Below, one piece after another: positions 3,244 to 8,888 of a DNA stretch of 8,952 nt. Numbering within the stretch: the stretch's first letter is position 1; every line of letters begins with the position of its first letter. The notes under the pieces are model-generated. The model saw nothing but the letters and a program-made list of their open reading frames with translations. It searched no databases and was not told the DNA's origin. Location of the stretch: the NCBI GenBank assembly GCA_030765605.1, contig JAVCCG010000050.1:1-8952 (forward strand), given 5' to 3'. Made by a program: the position numbers and the translations under genes. This DNA is from Candidatus Alcyoniella australis (lineage in GTDB: Bacteria > Lernaellota > Lernaellaia > JAVCCG01 > Alcyoniellaceae).

Positions 3244-3443
3244 CTTGCAGCCATGACTCCAGATTAGGTGAGAACTACACTCTCGCTACACGGACGGCGG
3301 AATCAACTGTTTATCGCCAAGGACGACCATCCGGATGACCCGGGTAATACCGTCTGCTGCTTGGTTTTCCGGAAACCGCGGAACACTCAAGTAATTATGA
3401 TAGTATAAATGACTAGGCAGTTAAAGTGAAAGGAGTGCAGAGC
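3244..3443. promoter_or_regulatory. Divergent intergenic region with candidate promoters
   Basis: This gap separates the leftward radical SAM operon from the rightward membrane-protein gene and must hold both promoters. The only AT-rich stretch is about 3389-3425. On the minus strand TTCACT (3430-3425) and TATACT (3407-3402) are 17 bases apart, a fair sigma-70-type pair that would give a ~150-base leader before 3243. On the plus strand TATGAT (3396-3401) or TATAAA (3404-3409) could be a -10, but no good -35 is seen. The leader contains short palindromes centred on CCGG or CCCGGG: CATCCGGATG (3328-3337), ACCCGGGT (3338-3345) and GGTTTTCCGGAAACC (3363-3377, one bulge), plus two CTACAC repeats 11 bases apart (3275, 3286). 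No cobalamin riboswitch signature was recognised. Confidence 0.35.
3429..3435 (+). promoter_or_regulatory. Ribosome binding site AAAGGAG that decides the start of the membrane-protein gene
   Basis: AAAGGAG sits eight bases before a TTG at 3444. It lies inside the reading frame if the earlier GTG at 3426 were used. A strong Shine-Dalgarno at ideal spacing argues that TTG 3444 is the true start; the GTG at 3426 has only a weak AGG upstream. Confidence 0.6.
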
Positions 3444-5123
3444 TTGCGGGATATCCGGAACTCGGGCCGGGAAAAGCCCGCCTCCCCTTTATGCTCCAAG
3501 GCGCAATGGGCCGTCGCGGTGTTGCTTGCAGCCGCGACACTGCTGGTATTCGTATCGATCTCCGTCTGCGTCTACCCGGTCGACCTAGACGAGACGATGC
3601 GCTTCCTGGAGACCAGGCTGCTGCTCGATCATCAAGTGCTGCTCAAGGATTTCTTCTCCAACAACTTCGATCCGGGAGCCTGGATCGTCTTCGCTCCCCT
3701 GGCTTGGATCGCCCCGGCCGCCTGGTCGCCGCTGGTCTCGCGTTGTTACGGCATCGGGCTTCTGCTGCTGAGCCTGGCCTCGCTGCTGTGGATGCCTAGG
3801 CTGTTGCTCGAGCGGCGCTTCCCCCTAGCCACGACCTGCGCCCTGGCGCTGCTGGCCGCCTGTCCGCATTTGCTGTTCAAGGTTTCCGAGCTGCGTCAGG
3901 ACGCTGTGTGTGCAGCGGTCGGCTTGCTAGGCATGGTCCTCTTGCTTGGGTCTCAATCCGGACGGGGGCGGCTCGGCGGAGTGCTGGCAATTTGGGCCGC
4001 AGTCTGCCTGCGGGGCGAGATGGCGCTGATTCTGGCTCCCCTCGCGCTGGCCGCCAGCCTCGAGGTCCGCGCGCGCAGGCTGCGCCTCAGGTGGCTGGCA
4101 GCGTTGTTACTGACGCCGCTGGCGCTGCTCGTGTGTTCGCTGCCCTTTATTTGGCACTGGTCGTGGAGCGAGCTCGCCGAAGTCCCCGGGTATCTGTCGA
4201 TTGCGGTACTGGCCAAGGGCGACACCTCGGAGCCCTCTTACCGGGCCGACTTGTTCGGCATACTGCTGGTGGCGGTTCCAGCCTTGGTGGAGCTGTTCCG
4301 GCAGATCGCACGGCCCGAGCGCAGCCAGCTTCGCGCGCTCTCGCTGGCAGTGCTGGGCTCGGTCGGGCTGATCCTGGGTCTGCATCTGGTCGTAGGTGCC
4401 ACGTTTCTGCAGAACTACTGGAGCCAGATCTTTATGCTGGCGCCGTTCGCCGGCATTCGCTGGGCGCGTTGGCTGAGCGCCCTGCTGCACAGGTCTGGTC
4501 TCCAATCTCTGCGGGGATGGTCTCCTGCGCTGCTGGCCGCCTGCTCGCTGATAATGATCGCGGTGCCCGCCAAAGATTTCATTATGGTCCGTCACTCGTT
4601 CGCGTCGCTTTCCGCCTCAGCGCTCTGCGCGGACCAAGCGGGTAAAAACACGCGGCCGATCGAGTATCAAGATTTGCAAATCGAGTATCAAGCCTACTCG
4701 CCGCTGGCATTAAGCAGATCCCAACTCTGGCTGCAATCCACGGTCGGCGAACGTTTCTCGATCTACTCCAACGATTTCATCCCGTCGGTGGGAGAGACGC
4801 TTCCGCCCCATGTGGTCGCCAACCTAGACCAACTGCTGCGGATGCAGACCGCAATGGGCGATGACCCACGTTCGACCCGGATAAAGGCCGATCTAATGCA
4901 ACGCTTTCCCCAGGCCTTTTTCGCGGACAGCGGACAGAGCATGCGGCCCGGCGAGTACTATCTGGACCGTCGGCCGGACGTGATCGTGGCCGACGACGGG
5001 CTGCGGCTGTTGGTGCGGTTCGAGCCAGGGTTGTGTGAGCTGATCCGTAGCGACTATCGTCCGGCAATCAGCCGCGGGAACCTGCCTGTCTACCTCAAGC
5101 GCGCGGGCGGCGCCCCCAGGTAG
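3444..5123 (+). CDS. Polytopic membrane protein, probable GT-C (ArnT/PMT-like) glycosyltransferase
   Basis: 559 residues from TTG 3444, or 565 from the weaker GTG at 3426 (residue numbers here count from the GTG). Residues ~27-50 form the first membrane helix. A periplasmic loop follows with acidic residues D53, D55 and E56 (YPVDLDETMRF) and then LLKDFFSNNFDPGAWI. That order, helix then D/E pair then DFF-N-xP, is typical of lipid-dependent GT-C glycosyltransferases of the PMT/ArnT type, where the acidic loop is catalytic. About nine more hydrophobic segments run to ~383, e.g. ~105-123, 160-176, 185-210, 221-240, 274-292 and 303-325. A soluble ~180-residue C-terminal domain follows, rich in YQ and aromatic residues. 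Such enzymes move a sugar from a polyprenyl phosphate to lipid, protein or glycan outside the membrane. Acceptor and donor are unknown. The gene is transcribed alone, between two leftward radical SAM operons. Confidence 0.72.
   Translation: MRDIRNSGREKPASPLCSKAQWAVAVLLAAATLLVFVSISVCVYPVDLDETMRFLETRLLLDHQVLLKDFFSNNFDPGAWIVFAPLAWIAPAAWSPLVSRCYGIGLLLLSLASLLWMPRLLLERRFPLATTCALALLAACPHLLFKVSELRQDAVCAAVGLLGMVLLLGSQSGRGRLGGVLAIWAAVCLRGEMALILAPLALAASLEVRARRLRLRWLAALLLTPLALLVCSLPFIWHWSWSELAEVPGYLSIAVLAKGDTSEPSYRADLFGILLVAVPALVELFRQIARPERSQLRALSLAVLGSVGLILGLHLVVGATFLQNYWSQIFMLAPFAGIRWARWLSALLHRSGLQSLRGWSPALLAACSLIMIAVPAKDFIMVRHSFASLSASALCADQAGKNTRPIEYQDLQIEYQAYSPLALSRSQLWLQSTVGERFSIYSNDFIPSVGETLPPHVVANLDQLLRMQTAMGDDPRSTRIKADLMQRFPQAFFADSGQSMRPGEYYLDRRPDVIVADDGLRLLVRFEPGLCELIRSDYRPAISRGNLPVYLKRAGGAPR
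4659..4700 (+). repeat. Imperfect 21-bp tandem repeat inside the membrane-protein gene
   Basis: ATCGAGTATCAAG occurs at 4659-4671 and again at 4680-4692, a 21-base period that keeps frame and encodes IEYQDLQ followed by IEYQAYS. Only the first 13 bases of each unit match. It may be a small old duplication at the start of the soluble C-terminal domain. Confidence 0.5.
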
Positions 5124-5159: not shown

Positions 5160-6203
5160 TCAGTCGCTGACCAGCCCCGGCATCAGCCTGGAGAATCCCA
5201 GAAGCCGCGAGGCGTTCTCAAAATGGCGCACAGCCAGTCGTAGGCGGCCGTTGTTGGGCAGAAACGTGGCCCAGGCCAGGTGGGGGGGGGGGCCGTAAGC
5301 GCGACAGCCGCTGCAGGGGCCGCAGAGGTCGAACCTGCGCCGGGCCTGGCAGGAGCGGAACTCAATCATCTCCGGCCCGTTGACCACTTCGCGCCATGAC
5401 CTGTACCTGAAGCCGGGGCTGAGCACCTCGGAGTAATTGCGCTGGACGGTCTGCTCGTCCGAGTGGCCGTACCCGTGATGCATAAGGTCTCCGTTGCAGT
5501 TTATCCAGTAGGGGCCCTGCCAAGCGAACAGGCATTGTTTGCGATTGCTCGACTTGTACGACGGTCCGGTCCGCGCACCGGCCCGCTCGTCGGCCTTGAG
5601 TCTGACTCCGTCGATGCCCGGAATGCGCCAGCTCGGCTCAAGCAGCCCGGCCTCGGAGCGGTTGTCATCGATAAGCACCATCTGGATCACAATCGAGGTT
5701 GAAGAGCGTTTTTTCAGCTTAAGCTCGGCCAGCATGCGGACGTTGTCCGCCAGCTGGCGATAATCAGCTCCGCGGCGCACCCTCTCGTACGTTTGCGCGT
5801 TGACGCCGTCGATGCCGATCAGGAACTGTCCCAGCCCGGCATCGAGCAGGTCGGAGGACAGCTCGGGCGTTAGCAGGGTGCCGTTGGTGGGCAACTGCGT
5901 GATGATCCCGTTACGCGTGCAATGCTCAACCAACTCGGGCAGGTCGGGGTGCAGGCAGGACTCCCCTGCTCCGTTGAGGTAAACGAACTCGAGGAAGTCC
6001 TTGCCGCCGTCGACGATCTGCTGAAAGAGGCGCTTGTCCATGTCCCCGTCGGGCCGGTCAAGGCTCGAGCGGTTGCAGAAGACGCAGTCGAGGTTACACC
6101 TGCTGGTGACCTCGATGGCGCAACACAGGGGCATGCCCGAGCACTTCGAGGCGCTGGCCAGATAGTCGCGCATTGACCGCAGGCGGTTGGCTGGATTGTT
6201 CAT
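5160..6203 (-). CDS. Radical SAM protein with SPASM-like C-terminal cysteine region
   Basis: 347 residues. The core ligands are C36, C40 and C43 in EVTSRCNLDCVFC. LNGAGESCLHPDL (~76-88) matches the SAM-binding 'GGE' strand plus the LHPD motif typical of SPASM/PqqE-MoaA relatives. LPTNGTLL (~104-111) and LIGIDGV (~128-134) are further core strands. The C-terminal region begins at C224 (KQCLFAW), continues WINCNGDLMHHGYGH (C236), and ends with C285, C294, C297 and C300 (CGPCSGC). This resembles a SPASM auxiliary-cluster domain, but the usual Cys after the DGD-V turn reads His-His, so the cluster set may be incomplete. There is no B12 domain. The start ATG overlaps the methyltransferase stop as ATGA, with AGGG just upstream. 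SPASM enzymes modify peptides, sugars, aminoglycosides or lipids; the substrate here is unknown. Eleven consecutive C's on the coding strand encode G304-PPP. Confidence 0.88.
   Translation of the reverse strand: MNNPANRLRSMRDYLASASKCSGMPLCCAIEVTSRCNLDCVFCNRSSLDRPDGDMDKRLFQQIVDGGKDFLEFVYLNGAGESCLHPDLPELVEHCTRNGIITQLPTNGTLLTPELSSDLLDAGLGQFLIGIDGVNAQTYERVRRGADYRQLADNVRMLAELKLKKRSSTSIVIQMVLIDDNRSEAGLLEPSWRIPGIDGVRLKADERAGARTGPSYKSSNRKQCLFAWQGPYWINCNGDLMHHGYGHSDEQTVQRNYSEVLSPGFRYRSWREVVNGPEMIEFRSCQARRRFDLCGPCSGCRAYGPPPHLAWATFLPNNGRLRLAVRHFENASRLLGFSRLMPGLVSD
5282..5292 (+). repeat. G11 homopolymer inside a coding region
   Basis: Eleven G's in a row on the + strand (C's on the coding strand) encode residues 304-308 (GPPPH) of the SPASM-like radical SAM gene. 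A slip here would replace the last ~40 residues but spare all the cysteines. The protein after the tract reads naturally (AVRHFENASRLLGFSR), so the count shown is probably the in-frame one. Confidence 0.9.
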
Positions 6204-6814
6204 CGGCCCTGCGCGGTGATCATAAAGGACAGAAACCGCGGATTGCGCAAGACGATCGTCTCAATCTGCCGAAACCCCGATCGACCGAGCTTTTCCGCCC
6301 ATTCCCCAGGCGTGTTGTGTTGCCTGCCGGTCTCGAAATATCTGTAAAATATCCTGTGGAAACGCGGGGTGTCTTTTAAGGGCGGAGCCCACTCGAAAAT
6401 AACGGCCACCCCCTTGGGGTCCAACAGCTGGCGGCAGACCCTCAGCAGCTCGAGATGCTCGGCCTCGGGCAGGTGGTGCAGCACGTGCGATATCAGAACT
6501 CCCTGAAAAAGCTCGTCGCCTGTGAACAGTTCAGTGGGCGCAGCCGAGAGGAAGCGATAGGCTCGATGCTGTTGTCGGCAGATCTCAATGCGCAACGGGT
6601 CGGTATCCAGGCCAAGATATTGTTGTGGGAAGAACAGCTCGACGAAGCGTCCGGTGCCACAGCCGATGTCGAGCCAGGCTCCCGGATGCTGCGCAATGAT
6701 CTCGGCCAGCAGCTCGTTTTTCTGCTCTGAATCTCCCTCTGCCAGCCGTTGCAGCATGTCCCATTGGCGAGGAAAGCGTTTAAGTACCCGGTAGAGCTGT
6801 TGCTTGACAATCAT
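6200..6814 (-). CDS. Class I SAM-dependent methyltransferase
   Basis: 204 residues, typical for a small Rossmann-fold methyltransferase (Methyltransf_11/25 type). Motif I is WLDIGCGTGRF (D49-G55), binding S-adenosylmethionine. The acidic residue ending strand 2 is D70 in YLGLDTDP, and HVLHHLPEAEH (~110-120) is the post-motif segment common in small-molecule O/C/N-methyltransferases. EWAPPLKD (~141-148) and GFRQIETIVLRN are the later strands. An N-terminal ~40-residue helical cap (FPRQWDMLQRL) may help hold the substrate. The start ATG overlaps a TGA in the shifted frame of the upstream radical SAM gene as ATGA, and its own stop overlaps the next start as ATGA, so it is the middle of a coupled operon. 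The methyl acceptor cannot be deduced. Confidence 0.88.
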   Translation of the reverse strand: MIVKQQLYRVLKRFPRQWDMLQRLAEGDSEQKNELLAEIIAQHPGAWLDIGCGTGRFVELFFPQQYLGLDTDPLRIEICRQQHRAYRFLSAAPTELFTGDELFQGVLISHVLHHLPEAEHLELLRVCRQLLDPKGVAVIFEWAPPLKDTPRFHRIFYRYFETGRQHNTPGEWAEKLGRSGFRQIETIVLRNPRFLSFMITAQGR

Positions 6815-6909
6815 TTCCTGATCGACAGCATCCTAAGCAGGGAACGCTCGGGCATGGCCGAGAACATCAATTTGTTGAAACGATACTCTGCCATCGGCCG
6901 GTAGAGCCG
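6811..6909 (-). pseudogene. Out-of-frame C-terminal tail of the upstream radical SAM gene
   Basis: Reading the minus strand from 6909 in the other frame gives 32 sense codons: RLYRPMAEYRF, then NKLMFSAMPERSLLRMLSIRK, then TGA at 6813-6811. This basic, leucine/methionine-rich sequence reads like a genuine B12-radical SAM C-terminus. Its TGA overlaps the methyltransferase ATG as ATGA, the same coupling as the next gene pair. The zero-frame tail after L463 (AALPADGRVSF... to TAG at 6835-6833) looks unnatural. Removing one base, or adding two, near 6910 would join the frames and give ~495 residues. Confidence 0.7.
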
Positions 6910-8299
6910 CGAGAGCAGCCAGGAAACGGGAATCGATATACATTAAGATTTTATCGTCGATAAAGTACGAGGAGAACGACAACCCGAGCAGCATCCGCCT
7001 GTCGATGTCGCCAGCAGGGCTGAGATTGGGCATATCGAAGCTCACGGACCCCCATTGTTCTAAGCTCTCCGGCGGTTGAAAGCCCTGCTGGACAGAGGAA
7101 TAATAAAGCTGGGTCTGCGGATAGGGCGCGTAAAAGTAGAGTGGCGAGGAGAGTACGTTCGGGTTCAATCGGTGTAGTTTTCTTATCAGTCGGATCGTTT
7201 GGCGGATGTCATCCAGCCTCTCCCCCGGCAGATTGATAATGAATGACAGGTACAATTGAATCTGGTATTTGCTGAGTCGGGTGATCTGCGCTTCGATTTG
7301 TGCAATCGATTCACTTTTATTCAATTGTTGTCGCATGCTGGGCGATCCAGATTCGATCCCAATACTGATACGTCTGAGACCGGACCGCGCCAGCAGCGCC
7401 AGAAAAGGCTCGTCCATGCGGCTGATCGAATCGATATCAACCCCTTGAATCATATATGTCAGTGGTGTCTTGCAAAGCCCCTCAACTATCGTCTCGGAAC
7501 GCTGGTCGTTGCAAAAGAAGTTGTCGTCAATAAAATAGATCTCGTCGAATCTATATTGATCGTGAAGGTCTCGCAGCTCGTTAAGCACGCGCTCCGCGCC
7601 CAACGCCCTCCAACGTCCCTTGTTGACGATCGAATTGTAGCAATAGGCGCACTTCCTGTGGCAGCCCCTGGACGATTGGTAGGCCAGGCTCCGCCTGCCG
7701 TTGTACTTCGGCAGATAGCGCTCGATATTTAAAAGCTGGTATGCGGGAGTCGGAATCCGTGCGGGATCGATCAGCGGCGTATCGGGTGTAACTGTTATCT
7801 GATCTCCTTGTTTGAACGCCAATCCGCAAATATCGTTCAACTCAGCGGGCGACGCCCCCTCCGACAGGCGTTGCGCAACCTCGCTGAAAATAAATTCTCC
7901 CTCGCCACGAACAACGATATCGACCAGGGAGCTGCCGGCAGTCTGCTCCGGCACGAGGCTCGGATGAACGCCTCCCCAGACAATCGGAACATCAGAGATC
8001 TCCCTGATCATCGCGGCCACGGCCAACGCGCTGGAGATCATCGGCCCGGTATTGGTCGTGATTCCAACGAGGATGCAGTTGCGGCCCAGCACCTCACGCA
8101 CCTTGGACTGCCAATTGGAATCTGATCTTAGATCAATGATTTCTATATCGAAAGTATCGGGCAAACCGCTGGCGATGCTGAGCAATCCTAACGGTACTAC
8201 GTTGGCCTTTCGCAACCTCTCCCAGAACCCGGAATGTGGTTGAATCAGCAGTACCGTGGGTTTCCCTTTGATTGTCATCTGATATGCCGATCCGCGCAT
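6833..8299 (-). CDS. B12-binding domain radical SAM protein with frameshifted C-terminus
   Basis: 488 residues as read from ATG 8299. The reading frame is open to 8614, but that extension overlaps the RidA-like gene and is Cys/Trp/Ser-rich noise. ATG 8299 lies four bases after the RidA-like stop, with AGGTTGAG just upstream; ATG 8278 (481 residues) is the alternative and matches where the conserved domain begins (KPTVLLIQPHSG). The N-terminal domain is B12-type: NVVPLGLLSIASGL, VGITTNTGP, WGGVHPSLVPE (~108-118) and IVVRGEGEFIF. The core has C213, C217 and C220 in SSRGCHRKCAYC, then FIDDNFF (~256-262), ISIGIESGS (~311-319) and INLPGE. The C-terminus appears frameshifted near 6910, after L463. 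It is less similar to the two left-hand radical SAM proteins than they are to each other. Hand-counted GC is low in places (37-55% in four sampled 60-base lines), against >70% in sampled lines of neighbouring genes. The reaction is unknown. Confidence 0.85.
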   Translation of the reverse strand: MRGSAYQMTIKGKPTVLLIQPHSGFWERLRKANVVPLGLLSIASGLPDTFDIEIIDLRSDSNWQSKVREVLGRNCILVGITTNTGPMISSALAVAAMIREISDVPIVWGGVHPSLVPEQTAGSSLVDIVVRGEGEFIFSEVAQRLSEGASPAELNDICGLAFKQGDQITVTPDTPLIDPARIPTPAYQLLNIERYLPKYNGRRSLAYQSSRGCHRKCAYCYNSIVNKGRWRALGAERVLNELRDLHDQYRFDEIYFIDDNFFCNDQRSETIVEGLCKTPLTYMIQGVDIDSISRMDEPFLALLARSGLRRISIGIESGSPSMRQQLNKSESIAQIEAQITRLSKYQIQLYLSFIINLPGERLDDIRQTIRLIRKLHRLNPNVLSSPLYFYAPYPQTQLYYSSVQQGFQPPESLEQWGSVSFDMPNLSPAGDIDRRMLLGLSFSSYFIDDKILMYIDSRFLAALAALPADGRVSFQQIDVLGHARAFPA

Positions 8300-8303
8300 A
8301 TTC

Positions 8304-8747
8304 TCAACCTGATTCTTTGCTATCGCGGACACACAGAACCTCAATCTCCACCAGCAGCTCCGGCCGGCACAGACGGGCTTCCACGCAGGTCGATGCTGGC
8401 AGTCGCTCAAGGTTCTGCTGCTTGAAGAACTCAATGCGTTCCTCGGCAAGTTCTTGATAATTTCTATCGATATCGCGTAGATAGAGCCTAGTATGCACCA
8501 CGTCGTGCCATTGGAAGCCCTCGGTCTTGAGTAGTTCTGTGACGTTGTGGAACATACGTTGCGTTTGAGCCCGCAGGTCGCCCACGTTGACGGTCTGGCC
8601 GCGTTCGTCAACACTGGCCGTGCCCGAGAGCATCATTATCGACACTCCCCGAATATCCAAGCGCATTCCACGGCTGAATGGCACTGGTTTATCGTAATCG
8701 TAAGCCTCGCAAAGCACTTGAGGCGCATGGACGGTCTTCTTGATCAT
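8304..8747 (-). CDS. RidA/YjgF-family (UK114-like) protein, first gene of the operon
   Basis: 147 residues from ATG 8747. A TTG at 8762 would add five codons, but GGAG at 8760-8757 is then inside the gene and is well placed (9 bases) for the ATG. Features of the RidA fold: IMMLSGTASVDERGQTV, VGDLRAQTQRMFHNV, VVHTRLYLRDI and a C-terminal CRPELLVEIEVLCV. Canonical RidA enzymes use an arginine in PARSCVEV to hydrolyse reactive enamines/imines; here the matching stretch is PASTCVEA, with no arginine, so standard imine deamination is doubtful. The phrase CRPELLVEIE recalls the RidA-like part of chorismatase-type proteins (family recollection, not a search). It sits four bases from the radical SAM start, which implies a pathway role rather than housekeeping. 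A ligand-binding or other enzymatic role is equally possible. Confidence 0.85.
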   Translation of the reverse strand: MIKKTVHAPQVLCEAYDYDKPVPFSRGMRLDIRGVSIMMLSGTASVDERGQTVNVGDLRAQTQRMFHNVTELLKTEGFQWHDVVHTRLYLRDIDRNYQELAEERIEFFKQQNLERLPASTCVEARLCRPELLVEIEVLCVRDSKESG

Positions 8748-8888
8748 AACGTAATTCTCCAATAAGCATTGGGAATAGATAAGAATTCAGATCCTATGCC
8801 GCACCCAGTTCTTTGCACACAGATTCGCATTACACGGCCTTTCTGTCAATAGCGCTCGCGGCTTGTGTAGGTAGCACACAAACGAAAC
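8748..8888 (-). promoter_or_regulatory. Upstream region of the four-gene operon with possible promoter elements
   Basis: This region must carry the operon promoter. A perfect TTGACA lies on the minus strand at 8849-8844, but no convincing -10 follows at 16-18 bases (GAATCT at 17). TAGGAT (8796-8791) is a weaker -10 candidate with TGTGCA 17 bases upstream. A perfect 6-bp inverted repeat with a 7-base loop, TTGTGT(8863-8868)...ACACAA(8876-8881), could be an operator or a short hairpin. GGAG at 8760-8757 is the ribosome binding site of the RidA-like gene. No protein gene is apparent here. Confidence 0.3.

Follow-up and report, generated by a model that had tools for sequence, protein, structure and literature searches.

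Gene content of the locus

The window, i.e., the whole stretch of DNA analysed (8952 bp), is the complete contig C50 of a 4.29 Mb draft genome that consists of 157 contigs and is an estimated 98% complete. Between positions 278 and 8762, within less than 9 kb, it carries three B12-binding radical SAM genes, one more radical SAM gene, a methyltransferase gene and a RidA-family gene. The genome is rich in radical SAM loci of this kind, with 66 candidates at a first look. Around the homologues examined, the cluster is not conserved. Also within the cluster, on the opposite strand (3426–5123, +), lies a gene for a 565-aa membrane protein, which by eye resembles ArnT/PMT-type glycosyltransferases and has no Pfam or NCBIfam matches. 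The features relevant to the third B12-binding radical SAM gene (8299–6811, −) are listed below.

8304–8762, minus strand: RidA/YjgF-family protein, upstream neighbour (PF01042, 3.5e-19)
6911–8299, minus strand: B12-binding radical SAM protein, intact in-frame part (residues 1–463), start ATG 8299–8297
6905–6920, minus strand: frame-change site, placed by profile alignment and codon-frame preference, extent approximate
6833–6910, minus strand: zero-frame tail with TAG, non-homologous, carried by no homologue examined
6811–6909, minus strand: shifted-frame tail, the ancestral C-terminus (LYRPxAxxR...MPE and 11 further residues), with TGA
6200–6814, minus strand: class I SAM methyltransferase, downstream, in ATGA overlaps with the shifted-frame stop and with the next gene
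5160–6203, minus strand: radical SAM protein without a B12 domain, next gene, with a weak likeness to metalloenzyme maturases

The product of the affected gene matches PF02310 (4.9e-14, residues 33–141), followed by PF04055 (1.8e-19, residues 208–372), both above the curated cut-offs, and its translation contains the CxxxCxxC motif of the radical SAM core (SRGCHRKCAYC). Judged by these domains, it is a B12-binding radical SAM protein. The order of PF02310 and PF04055 is shared with the BchE/HpnJ group, and BchE and HpnJ are the best resemblances in NCBIfam; however, the scores (136.9 bits against a cut-off of 481.35 for BchE and 121.7 against 577.6 for HpnJ) lie far below the equivalog cut-offs, as do all NCBIfam scores, and the protein is assigned to neither equivalog. 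Matches in the PDB cover the catalytic domains only and leave the tail uncovered. A model of the read-through protein, derived from only three sequences, was poor, with a mean pLDDT of 52 and values of about 30 in the tail.

Reading frames at the gene end

The last 32 codons of the gene are out of frame with the remainder. Counting M1 from the ATG at 8299–8297 (a second in-frame ATG is located at 8278), residue L463 is encoded by CTC 6913–6911. After this point, the zero frame continues with 25 residues, AALPADGRVSFQQIDVLGHARAFPA, up to TAG 6835–6833, while the shifted frame encodes 32 residues at 6909–6814, RLYRPMAEYRFNKLMFSAMPERSLLRMLSIRK, followed by TGA 6813–6811. The third frame reaches a stop within 15 codons. 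The shifted-frame TGA overlaps the methyltransferase ATG (6814–6812) in an ATGA sequence, and the methyltransferase and the next radical SAM gene overlap in the same manner at 6203–6200. These recomputed coordinates and translations agree with an earlier note on this DNA, which had described both tails and the two ATGA overlaps. At the site itself (roughly 6905–6920), CT and CG form short dinucleotide runs of about two units each, and a homopolymer is absent.

The codon usage of the genome changes frame at the same place. Up to about position 6911 the zero frame is preferred (+8.6 nats vs. −26.2 for the shifted frame), and past it the preference passes mildly to the shifted frame (+3.6 vs. −2.5 nats).

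Comparison with homologues

Homologues with 30–40% identity are present throughout six other genomes of the same class and also in more remote genomes. A scan of the genome_contigs set turned up a single, remote locus. With the zero-frame protein as a query, the alignments to homologues extend about as far as the frame change. The full reading frames were extracted, and the C-termini of the homologues, e.g., LAARLYRPVARWRLARRFFRLMPEKWLFQKWMDVS and AARLYSRIIRWRARRMFLSCMPETALINFYRQRH, resemble the shifted-frame tail of the window. The motif LYRPxAxxR...MPE lies in a single open frame in the homologues examined; in the window it is missing from the zero-frame product and is encoded in the other frame. 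None of the full reading frames examined carries a tail similar to the zero-frame one. The closest homologue (40% identity, L037:7267-9048) features about 60 extra residues past the shared C-terminus, and another B12 radical SAM reading frame overlaps this extra tail.

A profile was built from 22 homologues with the window's own sequence left out. The shifted-frame protein scored 43.6 bits against this profile, compared with 16.7 bits for the zero-frame protein and 14.5 bits for the protein cut at residue 463. The best score among shuffled-tail controls (200–400 versions) was 27.1 bits. Scored alone, the shifted tail received 23.4 bits and the zero-frame tail −2.4 bits. The position of the stop is conserved as well: in seven homologues it lies exactly 11 residues past MPE (LPE in one of them), as in the shifted frame of the window, and in several others 12 residues past it, counting only alignment-based values and rows with a clear MPE. 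As the window-free profile shows, the shifted tail is the ancestral one; on the evidence of the homologous sequences, it is the conserved C-terminus of the family. The proposal of the earlier note that a frameshift hides the true C-terminus is thus borne out. The findings named there as contrary to it, namely homologues ending in the zero-frame tail or a lack of homologues matching the shifted 32 residues, were looked for and did not occur.

The spacing of conserved residues gives an indication of the size of the indel. In 12 of the 22 homologues, the nearest one among them, the Tyr of LYRP follows the conserved Asp (IDxK) at a distance of 19 residues; in the window it would be 18 residues if one base were simply skipped. 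The latter distance also occurs in three divergent homologues. The family spacing therefore points to a net two-base loss, which fits the length better than a one-base gain. The earlier note had spoken of a one-base difference; the change of frame itself stands, and its size is refined by this comparison. Among the genes compared, the frame change was seen in this gene of this genome alone.

Frame breaks in the rest of the genome

A six-frame codon-usage Viterbi scan covered a 707-kb sample of this genome, of which 645 kb was coding. In 29 places one frame passed directly into another on the same strand, and almost all of these were ordinary gene overlaps of the ATGA type. Five candidates were classified as frameshifts, using a criterion that recovered 118 of 160 simulated mid-gene indels (74%). 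When inspected, two of the five had the look of normal ends of genes, which leaves at most about three that look like broken genes or remnants. The frame break of the window was not called by the scan, the sensitivity of which for indels placed 100 nt from the gene end was 54 out of 120 simulated cases. Judged by the 707 kb sampled, frameshifts are not widespread in the assembly.

Two other loci are worth describing. At L073:750-1269 (G000:C26), a HAD-phosphatase-like gene is seemingly split over two frames (FDLDSTLFSTELR and PLPGAARFVNRVYRAGAVVCYLTGRD); with a weak Pfam match (PF03767, 0.018), it is possibly another broken gene. At L066:102-528 (G000:C1), the start of a four-helix protein similar to bAvd/23S-rRNA-IVP (PF22296, 3.7e-5) breaks off after about 60 residues and a different frame carries on past the break, so the locus is probably a remnant.

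Origin of the frame change

The gene end is broken or mis-assembled in an ordinary way and is not a case of programmed frameshifting. A ribosomal shift would restore the full length, since the other frame encodes the conserved protein; however, the region is single-frame in all homologues examined, a return to the length of the family would take a rare −2 shift, and the site has neither a slippery homopolymer nor a stop codon. Direct reading of the sequence revealed no Shine-Dalgarno-like stimulator upstream. No stimulatory RNA structure was found, as three overlapping stretches fold within the range of dinucleotide-shuffled sequences (z = −1.29, 0.53 and −0.69), and each homologous reading frame examined is continuous across the site. 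In the absence of a slippery run, unusual RNA structure and conservation, it is very unlikely that programmed frameshifting produces a full-length protein from the present sequence. The remark in the earlier note that no slippery homopolymer is visible is upheld and extended by these results. Just as improbable is a lineage-specific programmed −2 or +1 shift yielding two forms of the enzyme, with and without the tail, tuned to the coupling with the methyltransferase. Reversible slippage that switches the tail (phase variation) could make use of the dinucleotide repeats found there, but slipped-strand switching typically takes longer runs than these, which have only about two units, and the homologues are unbroken at this place, so this explanation is also highly improbable. 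The least credible reading takes the zero-frame tail for a functional C-terminus specific to the lineage and the match of the shifted frame for a coincidence. The zero frame is indeed open over 25 codons, but both the tail-alone scores and the agreement of the shifted-frame stop with the family speak against it.

The two remaining explanations are a real mutation and a sequencing or assembly error. A survey of prokaryotic reading-frame transitions attributed homology-validated singletons to sequencing errors or recent indels (Antonov et al., PMC3711429). An error, with the gene of the organism intact and ending in the shifted-frame tail, is a serious possibility, though somewhat short of an even chance. 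The window is an entire contig, short and isolated, from a draft genome, the tail past the break is still family-like and the ATGA spacing of the operon is kept, hence there is no sign of decay; homology-validated singleton frameshifts are also often errors (PMC3711429). On the other hand, few frame breaks occur elsewhere in the genome, the site has no homopolymer, and the two-base loss suggested by the spacing would be a less usual sequencing error. A genuine recent mutation of the gene end is slightly favoured over an assembly error, in a split that was judged and not measured, as the assembly is not generally frameshifted. It is consistent with homologue tails that lie in one open frame with a conserved stop position and with the change of codon usage at the site, and the same survey (Antonov et al.) found singletons near the 3′ end likelier to be indel mutations than those elsewhere (PMC3711429). 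Against the mutation stand the shortness of the 8952-bp contig, whose ends on both sides are consistent with low coverage or a strain mixture, the general expectation that homology-validated singletons are sequencing errors (PMC3711429) and a poorly known background of terminal frameshifts, given the sensitivity of the detector near gene ends.

If the recent mutation is real, a small indel confined to this genome, more probably a net two-base loss than a one-base gain, would have struck the stretch of short CT/CG dinucleotide repeats some 100 bases ahead of the stop. The truncated product would retain the B12 and radical SAM domains but terminate at TAG 6833 without the conserved tail. From this TAG it is 18 bases to the methyltransferase ATG, and an AGGA is located a few bases upstream of that start; the downstream genes are thus probably still translated, either by reinitiation or from the methyltransferase's own ribosome-binding site. 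The strain may then have one impaired enzyme among the three B12 radical SAM enzymes of the cluster. In annotating the locus, a frameshift flag is due at the automatic gene end (TAG 6833), the unusual 25 residues before it are not to be taken for a new domain, and both the conserved tail and the tight ATGA coupling of the operon need to be recognised.

Comparison with known systems

In none of the homologue neighbourhoods examined does a methyltransferase adjoin the homologue. The frame change itself resembles the singleton indel-disrupted genes of the GeneTack category (PMC3711429): it is a homology-validated transition, occurs in one genome, lies near the 3′ end and is devoid of a recoding motif. 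The gene of the window shows no feature that distinguishes it from this category.
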